Below, piece after piece: positions 24,680-51,341 of a stretch of 64,000 nt of DNA. Positions within the stretch are counted from its first letter, which is position 1. Every line of letters starts with the position of its first letter. The DNA comes from Hyphococcus luteus (GTDB lineage: Bacteria; Pseudomonadota; Alphaproteobacteria; Caulobacterales; Parvularculaceae): positions 992,001-1,056,000 of the forward strand of contig NZ_PJCH01000005.1 of assembly GCF_002943565.1 (NCBI RefSeq), written 5' to 3'. The notes under the pieces were generated by a model. The model was not told the origin of the DNA and made no database searches. It saw only the letters and a program-made list of their open reading frames with translations. The position numbers were made by a program, and so were the translations under genes.

Positions 24680-24879
24680 TAGAGGTGCTCCAGTTAACGG
24701 GGCGCGAAAAACGATGTTGAGGCGATGATGTCAACCCGTCCGAAGGTCCCGGCCTTTGAGGTGGGTCATTTAAGGCTCGTGGGCTTTTGCGCGGTCCCGG
24801 CCGGGATTTCCAGCGAAAAAATATCGCTGCGGGATCAGTCAGGTTATATTGCGTGTTCCTTGCCCTCAAAGGAGCCGTC

Positions 24880-26148
24880 ATGCCCGACCTCGCCGCCGAC
24901 ATTTCATTGAGCGATCTCATTCATCTCGCGGTTGCGCTGGCCATCGGTTTTCTCATCGGTTTCGAGCGCGAGCACGCCCATCGCATAGAGGCGCGCGAGC
25001 GCAGCTTCGCCGGCGCCCGGACCTTTTCCCTGACTGCGCTCTCGGGCGCTCTTGCCGGGCTGCTTGACGGCAGCCTGCTCCTGCCTTCGGTCCTTCTTGC
25101 GTCGATCGCCGTCCTGACCGCCGTGGCTTATTGGGCGATGGCGCGGGAAAAACCGGGCGCCGGGGGAACCACGGAAATCGCTCTTTTCGTAACCTTTCTT
25201 CTCGGCCTGGCGGCGACGCGCGAGCTTGTTGTCGAGGCGGCGATCGGCGGGGTGGCGACAGCGATCATCCTCAGCATGAAGGCGCGCGTTCAGCGCGTGG
25301 CGTCGGCGCTCAGCGAGGGGGAATTGCACGCGGCTCTGCGTCTGCTGGCGATTTCGGTCATCATTTTGCCGATTCTGCCGGATCAGGATTTCGGCCCTTA
25401 CGGCGCTCTCAATCCGCGCACGATCTGGCTGATGGTGGTGTTCATCAGCGGCCTGTCTTTCCTCGGCTATTGGCTCATCAAGTTTCTTGGCGAAGGCCGG
25501 GGCGTTCTTCTGACGGGGCTCGCCGGGGGCCTCGCTTCGTCCACGGCGACGACGCTTTCCTTGTCGCGTTTCGCCAAGGAAGGGGCGGAGGGGCGCGCTG
25601 TGGCGGCGGGAATCATTGCCGCGAATGTGATGATGCTGATTCGCGTCGGCGTGCTGACGGCGGCGATTTCGAGGGCCGTGCTGGCGACGTTGTGGCCTGC
25701 GCTTCTCGCCGGGGCTGCGGTCGGCGCGGCTGCGGCGCTTTATCTCTGGCGCGGCCGGAACGCATCGAGGGAAGCTGAGACGCCGCTCGAGATCGGCAAC
25801 CCCATGGAGATCCGTCCGGCGCTTGTTTTCGCCGCGCTCCTCGCCGTCATCTCCCTCGCCGCGGGGTTCAGCGCCGATGAGTTCGGCAATGCGGGGCTGG
25901 TCGTTGTGGCGCTCATTTCAGGGCTGGCCGATGTGGACGCGCTCACCCTGACCGCCGGACGGCAGGCCGCGTCCGGGGCTGTCGGCGTTGATCCGGCGGC
26001 GCTTGCGGTAATGGCGGCGGTCGCCTCGAACATTGTCGTCAAAGGCGGCATGGCCTGGGCCATTGGCGGGGCGCGCGCGGGAACCCCCGTCGCGATGGCC
26101 CTTGCGGCGATCATCGCGGCCGGCGGGGTTGTTCTTTTCGTTTTCTAA
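24880..26148 (+). CDS. MgtC/SapB family membrane protein with DUF4010 domain
   Basis: A 422-residue membrane protein. The N-terminal third is MgtC-like, with LAVALAIGFLIGFEREHAHR and the ARTFSLTALSGALAG segment; the rest is a DUF4010 domain with many helices. The function of such fusions is not established. The ATG at 24880 has AAAGGAG six bases upstream and is preferred to earlier in-frame starts from 24787, which fall in non-coding-looking sequence. Its TAA stop directly abuts the left end of a MITE-like element, with the element's first base at 26149. Confidence 0.82.
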   Translation: MPDLAADISLSDLIHLAVALAIGFLIGFEREHAHRIEARERSFAGARTFSLTALSGALAGLLDGSLLLPSVLLASIAVLTAVAYWAMAREKPGAGGTTEIALFVTFLLGLAATRELVVEAAIGGVATAIILSMKARVQRVASALSEGELHAALRLLAISVIILPILPDQDFGPYGALNPRTIWLMVVFISGLSFLGYWLIKFLGEGRGVLLTGLAGGLASSTATTLSLSRFAKEGAEGRAVAAGIIAANVMMLIRVGVLTAAISRAVLATLWPALLAGAAVGAAAALYLWRGRNASREAETPLEIGNPMEIRPALVFAALLAVISLAAGFSADEFGNAGLVVVALISGLADVDALTLTAGRQAASGAVGVDPAALAVMAAVASNIVVKGGMAWAIGGARAGTPVAMALAAIIAAGGVVLFVF

Positions 26149-26332
26149 GAGCCTGACCGAAAATCCAGCAATGGAGCAAAAATTAAGATGACCGGACGTC
26201 AGCCAGCCGCAGCACGATACGCCGTCAGGCTCTTCTTCTTTCATGTGAGAGGCTGAGACGCATCGTTTTCCGGCTGACGAACGTCTGACAAACCCTCGTC
26301 TGCATTGTTTTAGTGAATATTCGTTCGGGCTC
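26149..26332. mobile_element. MITE-like element, copy A
   Basis: This 184 bp sequence has ends that are inverted repeats (GAGCCTGACCGAAAAT on the left; the complement of the right end reads GAGCCCGAACGAATAT, 13 of 16 identical). A second copy is at 30710-30891. The left part has an inner inverted repeat: the first ten bases from 26148, AGAGCCTGAC, are exactly complementary to GTCAGGCTCT at 26224-26233. The flanks are TAA and TAG, so a 3-bp duplication with one change is possible. It carries no gene and fills the whole gap between two convergent stop codons. Confidence 0.65.
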
Positions 26333-27177
26333 TAGGAAACAGGGGCCGCGCCGAAAGGCACGATCTTGTTTTGCCCGTCATGGCCGATATCGGCGCGGCC
26401 GAGATAGGGAACGCCGGCGCGCGCGCACCAGTATTTTATGACCTCTTCTTCGCTTGCGCCGAAGGGCCGGTCGTTTTCGGGAATATCGCTGAGCCGCCCG
26501 AGCATGATCCCTTCCGCGTTATGCACGTTTTTATCGCCCATGATGGAGAACAGCGCCCGGTCGGTGCGATAGAGATATTCGCCCACATCCTCGAGCATGA
26601 CGATGTGGCCGGATAAATCCGGCATCCAGTCCGTGCCGGAAAGATGCGCGAGAATGGTGATGTTGAAGGCCGCGCATTTTTTGCCGGATCTCGCCGTCGG
26701 TTCGACGCCCGACGCGTCGCCTTCGACGAGAAAGGCGAGGGCGCGCGCAATCGCCTCTTCGCCGCCTTCGCGGGGCAAGTCCGCCGGGATGGGGCCATGC
26801 ACAGGGCGGCCGATCCCGTCATTATAGAGACGCGCCAAGAGCATCCCGTTGTCGGAATAGCCGAGATAGGTTTTCTTTCGGGCGTGATCGTTCAGCTTCG
26901 CGAAAAGCGCTTCGTCGAAGCGGCAGGCGCCATAGCCGCCGCGCGCGAACCAAACGGCGTCATAGCGCGGATCGTTGGCGACCTCCAGAAACGCGGCTGA
27001 GCGCTCGGCGTCGCTTCCGGCGAAATGCCCGGCGGCGGAAAAACACTGGTCGTGGAAGTGGAGTTTCACTGAATCGCCAAAGCGCGCCGCGGCGATAGAG
27101 GCGGTCTTTTCCGCCAGCTCGCGCGTCACGGGTCCGCCGGGGCAGACAAGAGCGATATGTTTGGCAGATTTTATCAT
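26332..27177 (-). CDS. ldcA: LD-carboxypeptidase (peptidase S66 family)
   Basis: A 281-residue S66 serine peptidase that removes the terminal D-Ala from murein tetrapeptides during cell-wall recycling. The Ser-Glu-His triad is visible: S108 in YLGYSDNG, E196 in VMLEDVGEY, H266 in ADIGHDG; the RGGYG loop is at 79-83. Its ATG overlaps the stop of the upstream lipoprotein gene (ATGA), so they are co-translated. It is divergent from the Mpl/MurC-like ligase, which uses the tripeptide that this enzyme makes. The TAG stop uses the terminal base of the adjacent element. Confidence 0.87.
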   Translation of the reverse strand: MIKSAKHIALVCPGGPVTRELAEKTASIAAARFGDSVKLHFHDQCFSAAGHFAGSDAERSAAFLEVANDPRYDAVWFARGGYGACRFDEALFAKLNDHARKKTYLGYSDNGMLLARLYNDGIGRPVHGPIPADLPREGGEEAIARALAFLVEGDASGVEPTARSGKKCAAFNITILAHLSGTDWMPDLSGHIVMLEDVGEYLYRTDRALFSIMGDKNVHNAEGIMLGRLSDIPENDRPFGASEEEVIKYWCARAGVPYLGRADIGHDGQNKIVPFGAAPVS

Positions 27178-27872
27178 TCCAATCTCAAAGTAATAAAATC
27201 AGATTGTTTTGTCAGTTGCCCAAAGCTCGCATCTTTCGTCGCGATCCGATTGCCCTCAATCGGTACTAAGCGTCCGCCGCGTGCCGGCTCTAGCCAAGCT
27301 AACCTTTGCGCGATCTTTTCCGTCATCGGTTCATCCACCAATTCAAGCGTAAGGCCCGTCAGTTCAACGCCCGGCCCGAACGCGTCGGCGAAATCGTCCG
27401 GATCGACTTCATACACTGTCGCAGGGTCCGTTTCGTCCTTAAAGGCGGCGATTTTGGGGTATTGTTTGCGCGGCACATCGATGACGCCGGATGCGGCCTG
27501 CAATTTGTCAAACGATGTCTCGTCAACGCTGCCTGCTGAAGGCGCAACGTCGTATCCATTCAGGATGTCGTGAACATAGTCCTTCAGCAGAAAATAGGCG
27601 GTCCGGTCTCGCCCCATATCGAGGATCACCGCTTCGCCTTTCAGCTTCATGCTCATAGCCATGCCGGAAAGGGAATTCGGCGTGCGGCGCAGCTTGATCT
27701 CGAGAACGCTTGAGCCTTCATGAGGTACGCCGTCCGCGAGCGCATGGGCTGTCACCTTCACATTCAGCGTAATCTTATTTTCGCCGGCGGGCGCGCATCC
27801 GGCGAGCATGAGCGCCGCGATGAGCGCGCTAAGCATCGGGGGCAAGGCTGGCCAAAATCCGGTCAATTTCAT
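27174..27872 (-). CDS. Predicted lipoprotein, unknown function
   Basis: A 232-residue protein with a signal peptide ending in the lipobox LMLAGC, so it should be anchored in the envelope. The mature part is polar, begins with a beta-rich segment (KITLNVKVTAHAL) and has no motif I recognise. The ATG at 27872 is used; a GTG three codons upstream is possible. Its stop overlaps the ldcA start by 4 bp, linking it to peptidoglycan recycling by context. Confidence 0.65.
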   Translation of the reverse strand: MKLTGFWPALPPMLSALIAALMLAGCAPAGENKITLNVKVTAHALADGVPHEGSSVLEIKLRRTPNSLSGMAMSMKLKGEAVILDMGRDRTAYFLLKDYVHDILNGYDVAPSAGSVDETSFDKLQAASGVIDVPRKQYPKIAAFKDETDPATVYEVDPDDFADAFGPGVELTGLTLELVDEPMTEKIAQRLAWLEPARGGRLVPIEGNRIATKDASFGQLTKQSDFITLRLE

Positions 27873-27968
27873 GAGGCACACGCTTGATGAAAGAGGGCGA
27901 AACGGGCTTCTTGGCCCAAACTAGCCCATGGCAACTGTTTATTTCTTAATTTTCGCTAGGACGGCCCC

Positions 27969-29360
27969 GTGATGACTGATGCGAAAGACTATTTCTTCTG
28001 CGGAATCGGCGGGTCGGGCATGCTGCCGTTGGCCATGATCGTCGCCGCGCGCGGCACCCATGTGGAGGGCTCTGACCGGGCCCTCGATCAGGGCCGGACC
28101 GGCGCGAAATTCGATTATCTGCGCTCGCTCGGCATCGCGCTCCACCCCCAGGACGGCTCCGGCGTCAACCGGCCCTCGCAGACCCTTGTCGCCTCCGCGG
28201 CGGTGGAGGAGACAGTGCCCGATGTGGTCGCGGCGAAGGCGGCGGGCGCGGCGCGAGTGTCGCGCGCGGAACTGCTGGCGGAACTCTTCAATGAATCCGA
28301 ATGCCCCATCGGCGTCGCCGGCACCAGCGGCAAGTCGACCACGACGGGCATGATCGGTTGGATTCTGCATCACGCCAGGAAATCCCCCACGGTGATGAAC
28401 GGCGCCGTGATGAAGAATTTCGTCAAACCCGATGCGCTCTTTGCGAGCGCGGTGGTAGGCGAGGGCGAGGCTTTCGTCTCGGAGGTCGATGAGAGCGACG
28501 GCTCCATCGCCATGTTTCGCCCAAAGATTGCTGTGCTGAATAATGTTGCGCTCGATCATAAATCCATGGACGAGCTGCGTAAGCTGTTCGGCGATTTCAT
28601 CGGTCATGCGGAGACGGCGGTGCTCAATCTCGACAATGACGAGACGGCGCGGCTCGCCGCCTCACGCGAGGCCGGCGCGCTCACCTATTCGCTTACCGAC
28701 AAAAAGGCGGATTTTTACGCCGACAATATCGAGCCGGAGCCTTTCGGCGTTTCCTTCGATGTTCACGATGAAAACGGCCATGTGCGCGTCGTGCTGAAAA
28801 TGCCCGGTCGGCACAACGTGTCGAACGCGCTGGCGGCCATTGCGGCGTCGCGCGCCTGCGGTCTTTCGCTGACCGAAACCGCCGCCGGGCTTGGAACATT
28901 CGAAGGCGTCAAACGCCGGCTCGAATATGTCGGCGAGGCCAATGGCGTTACACTGATCGACGATTTCGGTCACAACCCGGACAAGATCACGGCGAGCCTG
29001 AAAACCCTGCACGAATTTCCGGGGCGGCTGCTCGTCATGTTCCAGCCCCACGGCTTCGGGCCGTTGCGGCTTATGAAAAAGGAATTCATCGAAACCTTTG
29101 CGTTGCAGCTCGCGCCCGACGATGTTCTGCTGATGCCCGAGCCCGTCTATTTCGGCGGCACCACGGACCGGTCGGTGTCGAGCAAAGACATCGCGGAAGG
29201 CGTCAGCGCCGCGGGGCGGACCGCGCAAGCGCTTGCGACGCGCGAAGATTGCGGCGCGAAACTGTTGAAGCTGGCGGAGCCCGGCGACCGCATCGTCGTC
29301 ATGGGCGCGCGCGACGACACGCTCTCGGTCTTCGCCGCCGATCTTTTAAAGCAGCTCTAG
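27969..29360 (+). CDS. mpl: Mur ligase family protein, Mpl/MurC-like (murein tripeptide recycling)
   Basis: A 463-residue ATP-dependent Mur ligase. The N-terminal IGGSGMLPLA and SDRALDQ fit the MurC/Mpl UDP-sugar domain, GTSGKSTTTGMIGWIL (about residues 118-133) is the ATP loop, and DESDGSIAMFRPKIAVLNNVALDHKSMDEL follows as in Mpl. The C-terminal substrate motif, usually DDYGHHPTEI in MurC or DDFAHHPTAI in Mpl, is DDFGHNPDKI here. Divergence from the LD-carboxypeptidase supports a role in rejoining tripeptide to UDP-MurNAc. MurC proper is the alternative, but cell-division genes are absent. The start is GTG 27969 or ATG 27972. Confidence 0.78.
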   Translation: MMTDAKDYFFCGIGGSGMLPLAMIVAARGTHVEGSDRALDQGRTGAKFDYLRSLGIALHPQDGSGVNRPSQTLVASAAVEETVPDVVAAKAAGAARVSRAELLAELFNESECPIGVAGTSGKSTTTGMIGWILHHARKSPTVMNGAVMKNFVKPDALFASAVVGEGEAFVSEVDESDGSIAMFRPKIAVLNNVALDHKSMDELRKLFGDFIGHAETAVLNLDNDETARLAASREAGALTYSLTDKKADFYADNIEPEPFGVSFDVHDENGHVRVVLKMPGRHNVSNALAAIAASRACGLSLTETAAGLGTFEGVKRRLEYVGEANGVTLIDDFGHNPDKITASLKTLHEFPGRLLVMFQPHGFGPLRLMKKEFIETFALQLAPDDVLLMPEPVYFGGTTDRSVSSKDIAEGVSAAGRTAQALATREDCGAKLLKLAEPGDRIVVMGARDDTLSVFAADLLKQL

Positions 29361-29361
29361 C

Positions 29362-29661
29362 TTAAACTTCTTTCAGCTCGCGTTCGTCGGCGGCCCACAT
29401 GGTGCGGCTGACAAGTCCCGCGCCGGCGAGCGCCGCGCGCCAGGCTTTCAAGTGCGGCTTTTCGAAATGCGCTTCCAGCGTTTCCCAGCTTTCCCATTTT
29501 TCCAGCACCAGAAAAGCGTCAGGGTCTGAAAGGTCAGGGCCGTAATGATATTCGATGCAGCCGGGCTCGGCGCGGCTCGCGGCGAGCATAGCCTGCATGA
29601 CGGGGCGCAGTTTTTTAAGCGCGCCCTCTTTGACGACAATCCGCCCCGAAACGACAATCAT
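29362..29661 (-). CDS. ABM domain protein, putative quinol monooxygenase (tandem copy 1)
   Basis: A 99-residue antibiotic biosynthesis monooxygenase-type ferredoxin-like fold, with the family pattern EPGCIEYHYGPDLSDPDAFLVLEKWESWETLEAHFEKPHLKAW across about residues 35-78. Such proteins act as cofactor-free monooxygenases or stress-linked quinol oxidases. It is 7 bp downstream of a paralogue with the same layout, so the pair arose by tandem duplication. It is convergent with the Mpl-like gene, leaving a single base between stops. Confidence 0.78.
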   Translation of the reverse strand: MIVVSGRIVVKEGALKKLRPVMQAMLAASRAEPGCIEYHYGPDLSDPDAFLVLEKWESWETLEAHFEKPHLKAWRAALAGAGLVSRTMWAADERELKEV

Positions 29662-29668
29662 AAATGCA

Positions 29669-29974
29669 TCAGCCCATCAGGTTGCGTTCTTCGCCCGCTT
29701 CGATGAAACGGATTTCCTGGGAGACGACGCCGATCTCGCCAAGCTTTGCGAACCATGCGCCCATATGGGGCTGCTTCACATGGGCGTCGAGCGCCGCCCA
29801 GTCCTTCCAGTATTCAAGGACGATGAGCGTGTCCGGCTCCATGACGTCCGCGCCGAAGGAATAGCCGATGCAGCCGTCCTCTTGCCGCGTCGCGGTGACG
29901 ACGGTCTCCATCTCCTTTTGCACCTTTGCAAGGCCGCCGGGAGACAATTGGGCCTTGCCGGAAACGATAATCAT
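29669..29974 (-). CDS. ABM domain protein, putative quinol monooxygenase (tandem copy 2)
   Basis: A 101-residue paralogue of the downstream gene, with the same order of features: MIIVSGKAQLSPGGL, DGCIGYSFGADVMEPDTLIVLEYWKDW and HVKQPHMGAW. The ATG at 29974 matches the start of the paralogue (MIVVSG) and has GGAG nearby; the open frame extends 23 codons upstream without a family match. It is divergent from the GNAT gene. Confidence 0.78.
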   Translation of the reverse strand: MIIVSGKAQLSPGGLAKVQKEMETVVTATRQEDGCIGYSFGADVMEPDTLIVLEYWKDWAALDAHVKQPHMGAWFAKLGEIGVVSQEIRFIEAGEERNLMG

Positions 29975-30054
29975 GGGCGATGCTCCTCTTTTTCGCAGCG
30001 AACTATGGGCGCCGCAAAGAGCCGCGTCGATATCAAAACACAACTGATCATGGC

Positions 30055-30717
30055 ATGAATAGCGAACTCGACTGGTCTGAACGGCCGCCGCCGGCGCTGC
30101 CGCAAAGGCGGGGACGCTTTGTCGCGATCGAGCCGGCGATCTTCCCCGAAGCGGCGGAGGCGCTGTTTTCCGTCCTTGGCGGGCCGGGAAATGACGATCT
30201 TTGGACTTACATTCCCTTCGGCCCTTTTAAGAGCACGGCGGCGCTCGGCGCCGCCATGGCCGCCGCCGGGAAAAAGGGCGGCTGGCTGACCCATCTTTTC
30301 CGCGATGCGCAGACCGGCGCGCCGCTCGGCATGGCGAGCTATATGCGCATCCGTCCCGAGGCGGGTTCGGCGGAAGTCGGCTGCGTCGTGTTTTCGAAAA
30401 AGCTGCAGAAAACGCCCGCCGCCACGGAGGCCATGTATCTGATGGCGAAACATGTCTTCGACGATCTTGGTTATCGCCGTTACGAGTGGAAATGCGACAA
30501 CGCCAATGAGGCGTCGAAACGCGCCGCCCGCCGGCTCGGCTTTTCCTTCGAGGGCGTCTTTCGCCAGGACCTGGTGGTGAAGGGGCGCAACAGGGACACG
30601 GCGTGGTTTTCCATCATCGACGGGGAGTGGCCGCAGGCAAAAGCTGCTTTCGAAGTCTGGCTCGCGCCGGAGAATTTCGACGACGAGGGGCGCCAGCGCT
30701 GTCCTCTCAGAGCCTGA
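30055..30717 (+). CDS. GNAT family N-acetyltransferase with element-derived C-terminus
   Basis: A 220-residue acetyltransferase of the RimJ/RimL-like GNAT group. The acetyl-CoA binding region is ANEASKRAARRLGFSFEGVFRQDLVVKGRNRDTAWFSIIDGEW toward the C-terminal half. The ATG at 30055 is preferred to earlier in-frame starts because conserved sequence begins there. The final Arg-Ala codons and the TGA stop are read from the left end of MITE-like copy B, so the element has rewritten the C-terminus. The substrate is unknown. Confidence 0.8.
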   Translation: MNSELDWSERPPPALPQRRGRFVAIEPAIFPEAAEALFSVLGGPGNDDLWTYIPFGPFKSTAALGAAMAAAGKKGGWLTHLFRDAQTGAPLGMASYMRIRPEAGSAEVGCVVFSKKLQKTPAATEAMYLMAKHVFDDLGYRRYEWKCDNANEASKRAARRLGFSFEGVFRQDLVVKGRNRDTAWFSIIDGEWPQAKAAFEVWLAPENFDDEGRQRCPLRA

Positions 30718-30891
30718 GCGAAAATGCATCAAGATCCCGGGAGGGGGCGTAATCAGACGTTCGCTCGCCAGGAACCGATGCGCCTCAGGCTCTTCAGTCT
30801 TAAGAATGAGCGCCTGACGGGCATCGGGTCCGGGCCCGCAGACGTCTGACCATCAGGCAGGAATGCATTTTTTGACTTTTCGGTTGGGCTC
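30710..30891. mobile_element. MITE-like element, copy B
   Basis: This 182 bp copy has the same ends as copy A (left GAGCCTGAGCGAAAAT; complement of the right end GAGCCCAACCGAAAAG) and is flanked by the direct repeat TCA at 30707-30709 and 30892-30894, which looks like a 3-bp target duplication. The inner hairpin is kept: AGAGCCTGAG at 30709-30718 pairs exactly with CTCAGGCTCT at 30784-30793. The tenth base differs from copy A (G instead of C) and its partner has changed to match. Confidence 0.7.
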
Positions 30892-30940
30892 TCAGGGGCA
30901 TCCGCAACGCGCTGTGAACTTTCCCGGGCCCTACGCCATG

Positions 30941-51077: not shown

Positions 51078-51152
51078 GGCGACTCTCCTTTAAGGTTGGA
51101 TGTCGCCCTGACGGAGGTTCCGCTCGCCATGGCTGATCCCGGCCGGACGAGA

Positions 51153-51325
51153 GACGACGCGGACGGCAGGTCTCCTGGCTTGCGGATGGTCGGCGCCGCC
51201 TGCCTTCCCGGAGCTCAAGAGCTTCCAGTGGCTTCGTAGCGGGCGCCTGGCCGCTTACAGTTGCGGGCACAGCCGCGGATTTACACCGCGTTCCCTATTC
51301 TCTCCCATATGCGGGAGCACCGTCA
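51153..51325 (-). ncRNA. Cobalamin riboswitch controlling btuB
   Basis: On the minus strand the core elements appear in order: GGTGC near 51321, the AACGCGGTG..AATCCGCGGCTG..CCCGCAACTGTAAG core (TTACAGTTGCGGG on the plus strand at 51255-51267), a GAAGCCACTGG segment, and the B12 box AGCCAGGAGACCTGCC (complement at 51165-51180). It ends about 75 bp before the btuB ATG. It should turn off btuBFCD when adenosylcobalamin is plentiful. The ends are approximate. Confidence 0.95.
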
Positions 51326-51341
51326 GCGGCTTTCATAGAAA

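Follow-up and report, generated by a model that had tools for sequence, protein, structure and literature searches.

A dispersed dimeric repeat in Hyphococcus luteus whose matched stem bases include a base of the landing site

The repeat in the window

The window, by which we mean the whole analysed stretch of 64,000 nucleotides from Hyphococcus luteus (contig NZ_PJCH01000005.1, positions 992,001 to 1,056,000), carries two copies of a short repeat, A and B, both found where the original prediction had located them. Copy A lies exactly between the convergent MgtC/DUF4010 and S66 peptidase genes, with both stop codons on the element edges, and copy B ends a GNAT gene and precedes an ATP-grasp CoA ligase gene (Table 1). 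The element, taken as AGAGCC...GGCTCT, measures 184-186 bp in the window, without room for a transposase gene. Our preferred reading, to which we give a probability of roughly 0.55, is that of a non-autonomous transposable element of the insertion sequence (IS) type, that is, a miniature inverted-repeat transposable element (MITE), with stems whose match is maintained at the DNA level, likely by template switching between inverted repeats. In the following, X is the base outside AGAGCC, X' is the base after the internal GGCTCT and G000 is the genome to which the window belongs.

The relatedness of the two copies is evident from their alignment score of 148, against 36.8 +/- 8.7 for shuffled sequences. 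In each of them the left end forms a hairpin with an internal repeat, namely AAGAGCCTGAC (26147-26157) with GTCAGGCTCTT (26224-26234) in copy A, perfect over 11 bases, and AGAGCCTGAG (30709-30718) with CTCAGGCTCT (30784-30793) in copy B, perfect over 10 bases; these perfect inner stems, as well as the TCA duplication at the ends of copy B, were as first described. The shared inverted ends of 16-17 bp were found only in an imperfect form, since the outer ends match inversely at 13/16 positions in A and 12/16 in B. Both copies fold as DNA better than their shuffles (z -2.8 and -5.4, respectively). A clean inversion of the core between A and B was hinted at and was dropped, the pair-by-pair comparison not being clear-cut.

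Table 1. Positions of the two copies, their modules and the adjoining stop codons in the window
Feature	Position	Strand	Remarks
TAA stop codon of the MgtC/DUF4010 gene (24787-26148)	26146..26148	+	on the insertion target
Copy A, dimer AGAGCC...GGCTCT	26148..26333	+	outer X bases 26147 (A) and 26334 (A)
Copy A, left module	26148..26233	+	AGAGCC 26148-26153 / GGCTCT 26228-26233; X = A26147, X' = T26234
Copy A, right module	26248..26333	-	AGAGGC 26248-26253 (one base off) / GGCTCT 26328-26333; X' = G26247 unpaired with X = A26334
Core motif, copy A right module	26281..26288	-	conserved; ACGTCTGA on +, TCAGACGT on -
Stop codon (TAG on -) of the S66 peptidase gene (26332-27177)	26332..26334	-	built from element bases plus X
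Copy B, dimer	30709..30892	+	outer X bases 30708 (C) and 30893 (C); TCA at both flanks
Copy B, left module	30709..30793	+	X = C30708, X' = T30794, non-pairing
TGA inside copy B	30715..30717	+	terminates the GNAT acetyltransferase frame (29980-30717)
Core motif TCAGACGT, copy B left module	30753..30760	+	conserved; inverted partner 30842-30849
Copy B, right module	30809..30892	-	arms AGCGCC / GGCTCT; X' = G30808 pairs with X = C30893

Family, distribution and architecture

A model that uses sequence only was built from an alignment of 12 copies and searched against the own genome, where it gave 64 overlapping matches. Manual merging reduced these to 33 places; the best E is <= 6.7e-7 at 31, and three places are of half size, about one module. 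The element had been taken for a two-copy one, which these 31 places contradict. With the same model, matches (E <= 0.01) were obtained in 8 of the 28 genomes of the genus. A model of the single module matched 8 of 62 genomes of the family, belonging to 3 of 9 genera, and the same 8 among 398 genomes of the order, this last search having been run with strict filters that may miss weak matches. Among named genomes, a pattern scan returned 39 stretches with one clear element (L262, Parvularcula sp. NAT21), the next best having an E of 0.0068. As far as these sequence searches reach, the family has so far been found only in the Parvularculaceae. Within the literature searched we found no paper linking Parvularcula, a repeat and a MITE, and this absence reaches no further.

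The element is a dimer at which two inverted modules of 84-86 bp (about 85) surround a spacer of 14-15 bp (about 15), each module being closed by its own 7-bp stem X-AGAGCC / GGCTCT-X'. In G043 and G048, modules or dimers also form tandem arrays in which exactly one TXA links neighbouring units (L320, L328, L335, L339 and L340), and L359 of G048 holds at about 500-825 a variant of about 320 bp with the usual ends and unrelated palindromic DNA inside.

Filled and unfilled sites

Mobility can be read from the close relative G024, which is 80-96% identical over the flanks. When the joined flanks of 24 own-genome insertions were compared with it, a single stretch spanning the join was obtained at 20 (11/12 and 9/12), and at the site of copy A the element is absent from G024. 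At L104, one of the 20, G024 keeps ten bases that resemble the right end of the element and may be a remnant of it.

The family inserts at TNA sites and duplicates them (3 bp) at four clear sites. At L019, the unfilled site has one TGA and the filled site two (2/3 relatives); at L105 the same holds for TTA (3/3 relatives); at L013, TAA is single in G024 and double in the filled site; and at L108, TAA is single in G023 and double when filled, with TAG in G024. Moreover, L112 is consistent with a TTA target plus later changes. The MITE-like character that had been predicted, with many copies and 3-bp duplications, is borne out by the copies themselves and by the filled and unfilled sites. At L019 and L105 the unfilled sites already contain X, which therefore belongs to the target; this rules out that the element carries X without any duplication. 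Two relatives hold other small insertions at the same gene ends: the L005 site in G024 (L206, 122-181) has a 59-bp piece with inverted ends instead, and the copy A site in G004 (L157) has a different palindromic repeat.

Base pairing in the modules

Covariance was tested by permutation in scripts, using modules from fetched loci only. A search with nhmmer gave 236 hits scoring 6 bits or more, spread over 113 loci; removal of overlaps, of one duplicate locus and of hits with arms more than 2 bases off AGAGCC/GGCTCT or AGTGTC/GACACT left 208 modules, 57 from G000, 41 from other genomes of its genus, 52 from G043 and 58 from G048. Owing to this selection by the arms, pairing counts within the arms are inflated, and those at X are unaffected. 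A first test covered 49 loci, ends with an arm more than 1 base off being excluded per test.

The strongest covariation is at X, one base outside the arms. In the 49-locus test X and X' were complementary in 33/39 left modules (13.4 expected) and 31/38 right modules (11.3 expected), and offsets 2 to 4 gave nothing significant. A covarying helix formed by the two outer ends, or by the two inner arms, is rejected at X, outer base and outer base being complementary in 6/39 and inner and inner in 5/37. Among the 208 modules the pair is complementary in 147, with 57.0 expected (own genome 46/57, other members of the genus 33/41, G043 24/52, G048 44/58), and it is seen in all four Watson-Crick types, C:G and G:C occurring 22 and 21 times. 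Because modules fall into types with a typical X', shuffling was also confined to sequence clusters; at a cut of 0.38 the 147 observed stand against 114.5 expected, with a maximum of 130 in 4000 shuffles, and at the tightest cut (0.30) against 132.5 (P 0.00025), with 24 against 19.9 in G043 (P 0.03) and 44 against 37.9 in G048 (P 0.006).

Within the arms, base 3 (193 against 174.1 expected) and base 5 (202 against 187.0) covary, through a variant AGTGTC/GACACT present in one module when the other has AGAGCC/GGCTCT (e.g. L137-L139). Position 7 gave 104 against 78.4 without stratification, mainly from G048 (36 against 24.8). The original prediction had rested on a C-G to G-C swap at the tenth base of the arm; this position pairs in 41/208 modules, with 42.8 +/- 5.2 expected, and its equivalent columns on a 54-module alignment pair in 6/53 lettered rows, which is chance. 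Paired changes in the predicted hairpin are borne out at X:X' and at arm bases 3 and 5, and not at the tenth pair. The 1456 stem pairs comprise 1328 Watson-Crick, 22 G-T, 34 A-C and 72 other pairs (18 G-T and 14 A-C when the X pair is left out). No consensus inner structure was found beyond the arms.

Orientation and change of the pair

Among the simple dimers, 42 have equal outer X. Nearly all of these (39) lie so that X can pair with an inner base, with at least one match and without anti-match; 1 lies the opposite way and 2 are mixed. Outer bases are unequal in 29/71 simple dimers, and both modules are still paired in 14 of these 29. At L113 a relative apparently reads TAA where the right flank reads TGA, matching the inner C, with a left flank that aligns poorly. 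Among 103 nearest-neighbour pairs of modules 42 agree, the difference is confined to X in 25 and to X' in 16, and both bases differ in the remaining 20, of which 15 are fully paired. The X pairs seem to change after insertion, and the orientation at insertion seems correlated with the inner base.

Gene context

Over 163 edges examined, a gene pointing at the element reaches it at 54, and its stop codon lies exactly on TXA in 23/54 and one base further in 9/54, a count made without a random control and based on codon-position G+C, which is poor in G043. Either a preference for such targets or the persistence of those insertions that do no harm may explain this coincidence.

Rfam, searched over the whole window at the gathering score, gave only a cobalamin riboswitch elsewhere (51148-51339, minus strand, RF00174, 136.1 bits) and no match to the element. 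Over nine loci (E <= 1) it gave only transfer-messenger RNA (tmRNA), signal recognition particle (SRP) RNA, tRNA and one weak match, all beside elements. In G022, G003 and G007 module-like sequence lies directly beside the tmRNA gene (L145 641-803, L150 604-859 and L151 638-672), with arms GGCGCC in place of AGAGCC in G022 and a repeat of the tmRNA end sequence GGCGCCTGGCAACAGAAGCC; such sequence may be an old or founding form of the element. L152 adjoins an SRP RNA gene. An inverted repeat that resembles a terminator, AAAAACGCCGCCCC / GGGCGGCGTTTTTG, holds the element in its loop in L003 (about 1500-1683), and a comparable hairpin in the relative G004 lacks the element.

Origin of the matched pairs

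In our preferred reading, a DDE-type transposase, presumably of the IS5 type, acting in trans would move the element, as the 3-bp TNA duplication suggests. TNA duplication is made by some IS5-family groups, a property that PMC5658596 and PMC7031236 do not state. At insertion, the target base and the orientation would be correlated with the inner base. Later, a polymerase may switch template between the short inverted arms and copy one arm onto the other, which would make both partners match as Watson-Crick pairs, and the copying probably halts after one base since the positions -2/+2, mostly T/A, allow the strands to realign. Template switching is described as yielding compensatory changes (PMC8794818) and as homogenising arms and inverting spacers (PMC8604942); between inverted repeats it can produce Watson-Crick pairs in one step, alter either partner and turn round the stretch between the arms. 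We regard it as the likeliest cause of the later pair changes.

Several observations weigh against this reading. No transposase partner with the element ends TNAGAGCC was found in a search that covered PF13340, as the one transposase family, in 8 genomes and the end pattern in G048 and G000. The five PF13340 hits, in 4/8 genomes, are not flanked by element ends; in G000 the listed pattern matches cover all up to 1 mismatch; in G048 the listed pattern ends pair within about 320 bp, and a wider pair that was checked (2.3 kb, two neighbouring copies) encloses frames resembling, by eye, peroxiredoxin and malate dehydrogenase and no transposase. L109 has no target duplication, and at several sites, including that of copy A (CTAG in G024), the target is unreadable, having changed in relatives. 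Within the own genus the X signal is weak at the 0.30 cut (79 against 74.8, P 0.055), and neither window copy is fully matched, X being paired in 1/2 modules of each. The 41 one-side against 20 both-side differences make matching a tendency and no rule, and in clusters of at least 5 modules the inner bases that deviate from the cluster type match X in 24/43, in G048 in only 4/13. Finally, the direction of template switching is inferred from patterns and not from events with a known ancestor. One IS-like element was seen in G008 (L355, 1412-2259), 848 bp long, with ends CTAGGCTCAGGAC unlike those of the repeat and a hit to a DUF4096-type transposase.

Paired substitutions are the usual evidence for selection on a folded nucleic acid, and the folded form had indeed been thought to be under selection. 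Here the signal includes a base from the landing site and so cannot all be inherited structure. The changes are mostly between Watson-Crick pairs, with no clear excess of G-T and with either partner changed, so that template switching without selection fits at least as well. The strongest alternative, in our view possible and yet unlikely, is that selection acts on the stem of the module because a mobilising enzyme, in the manner of REPINs, reads it as a cruciform or as a single strand of DNA folded on itself; only matched copies would then move, and selection would compensate mismatches. It is favoured by the dimer architecture, by the folding of both window copies above shuffles, by pairing that survives a change of the arms (AGTGTC/GACACT, and GGCGCC by the tmRNA in G022) and by the independent change of left and right arms in L137-L139. 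Yet the copies of G043, the least diverged (mean module distance 0.13-0.18) and, judged by this distance, the most recently moved, have X paired in under half of their modules, against 79/98 for those of the own genus, and the 3-bp target duplication is unlike the product of Y1 transposition, which on single strands is not known to leave one.

Perhaps it is the inner base X' of a terminal hairpin that, during insertion, recognises the middle base of TNA by pairing and so sets target choice and orientation, as a one-base nucleic-acid guide, an idea that we find doubtful. The overall orientation, 39 to 1, would fit it. In G043 the module type with inner C has outer G in 14/26 and outer C in 2, and in G048 inner T goes with outer A in 24/25. 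However, the other module type of G043, with inner A, matches in only 2/14, so that at most one end could serve as guide there, and in G048 a protein preference for one orientation at TAA would look like guide pairing. If true, this would be base-pairing target recognition in a transposon that makes target duplications.

A role as RNA, in which selection would favour the fold for terminating transcripts, protecting 3' ends or processing, is improbable. Copies do lie at gene 3' ends, with the stop on the target or one base further at 32/54 edges, module-like pieces adjoin tmRNA, SRP RNA and tRNA genes, the element of L003 lies within a terminator-like hairpin, and copy A holds two overlapping terminator-like sites on the minus strand. 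But such sites number 7 in the region against 7.3 in shuffles, Rfam has no match to the element in the window or the nine loci, the modules lack a consensus inner structure and the position of stop codons would also be expected if harmless insertions alone survived. A selected RNA stem should tolerate G-U, and G-T pairs show no clear excess over A-C, so that an RNA role is not favoured, even though the numbers are small. Equally improbable is that no pairing process exists and that the match of X and X' comes from the shared ancestry of module types plus a fixed insertion orientation at TAA. In its favour, almost all pairs of G048 are A:T for one type of module and T:A for the second, and stratifying by cluster takes away much of the excess; the excess that persists within clusters already strains this explanation, and the C:G and G:C pairs and the 14 unequal-ended dimers matched on both sides speak against it.

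With many independent insertions, many of them with known unfilled sites, the family is a natural test bed for selection versus template switching versus target choice.

Comparison with known systems

Five features of a MITE are found in this element: 1- short length, 2- absence of a transposase gene, 3- dispersed copies, 4- terminal inverted repeats and 5- target duplication. Bacterial MITEs such as RUP, Correia/NEMIS and ERIC, as PMC2229807 and PMC10969869 describe them, are likewise shorter than 200 bp and intergenic, with inverted ends, target duplication and a long hairpin, and without a transposase. Unlike what is described there, the present element has two hairpin modules with their own covarying stems, a target base among those that pair, tandem arrays with one TXA between units and no parent IS found. 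These differences appear new, within the limits of a literature check that was not systematic.

Published cases of template switching at inverted repeats resemble ours in their compensatory changes, arm homogenisation and spacer inversion, to which the hint of a core inversion between A and B may be compared; as presented in PMC8794818 and PMC8604942, they concern RNA genes and yeast coding genes, whereas here a mobile element has a target base in its arm. REPINs are not known to make a target duplication such as the 3-bp one seen here. They too, according to the account in PMC3116915, consist of an inverted pair of hairpin units with a spacer and spread as a unit, but their REPs, given as 20-40 bp with GTAG/CGTC tags (PMC3733652), differ from our units of about 85 bp. 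CIR of Caulobacter and Brucella is, in the description of PMC2229807, also a repeat found between genes of Alphaproteobacteria and made of two arms and a linker, yet it has about 110 bp and a conserved GANTC, against about 184 bp here and GANTC in 25/86 dimers and in neither window copy. The element behaves as a MITE does; its layout recalls that of REPINs and of CIR, and it departs from the former in unit size and from the latter in GANTC.

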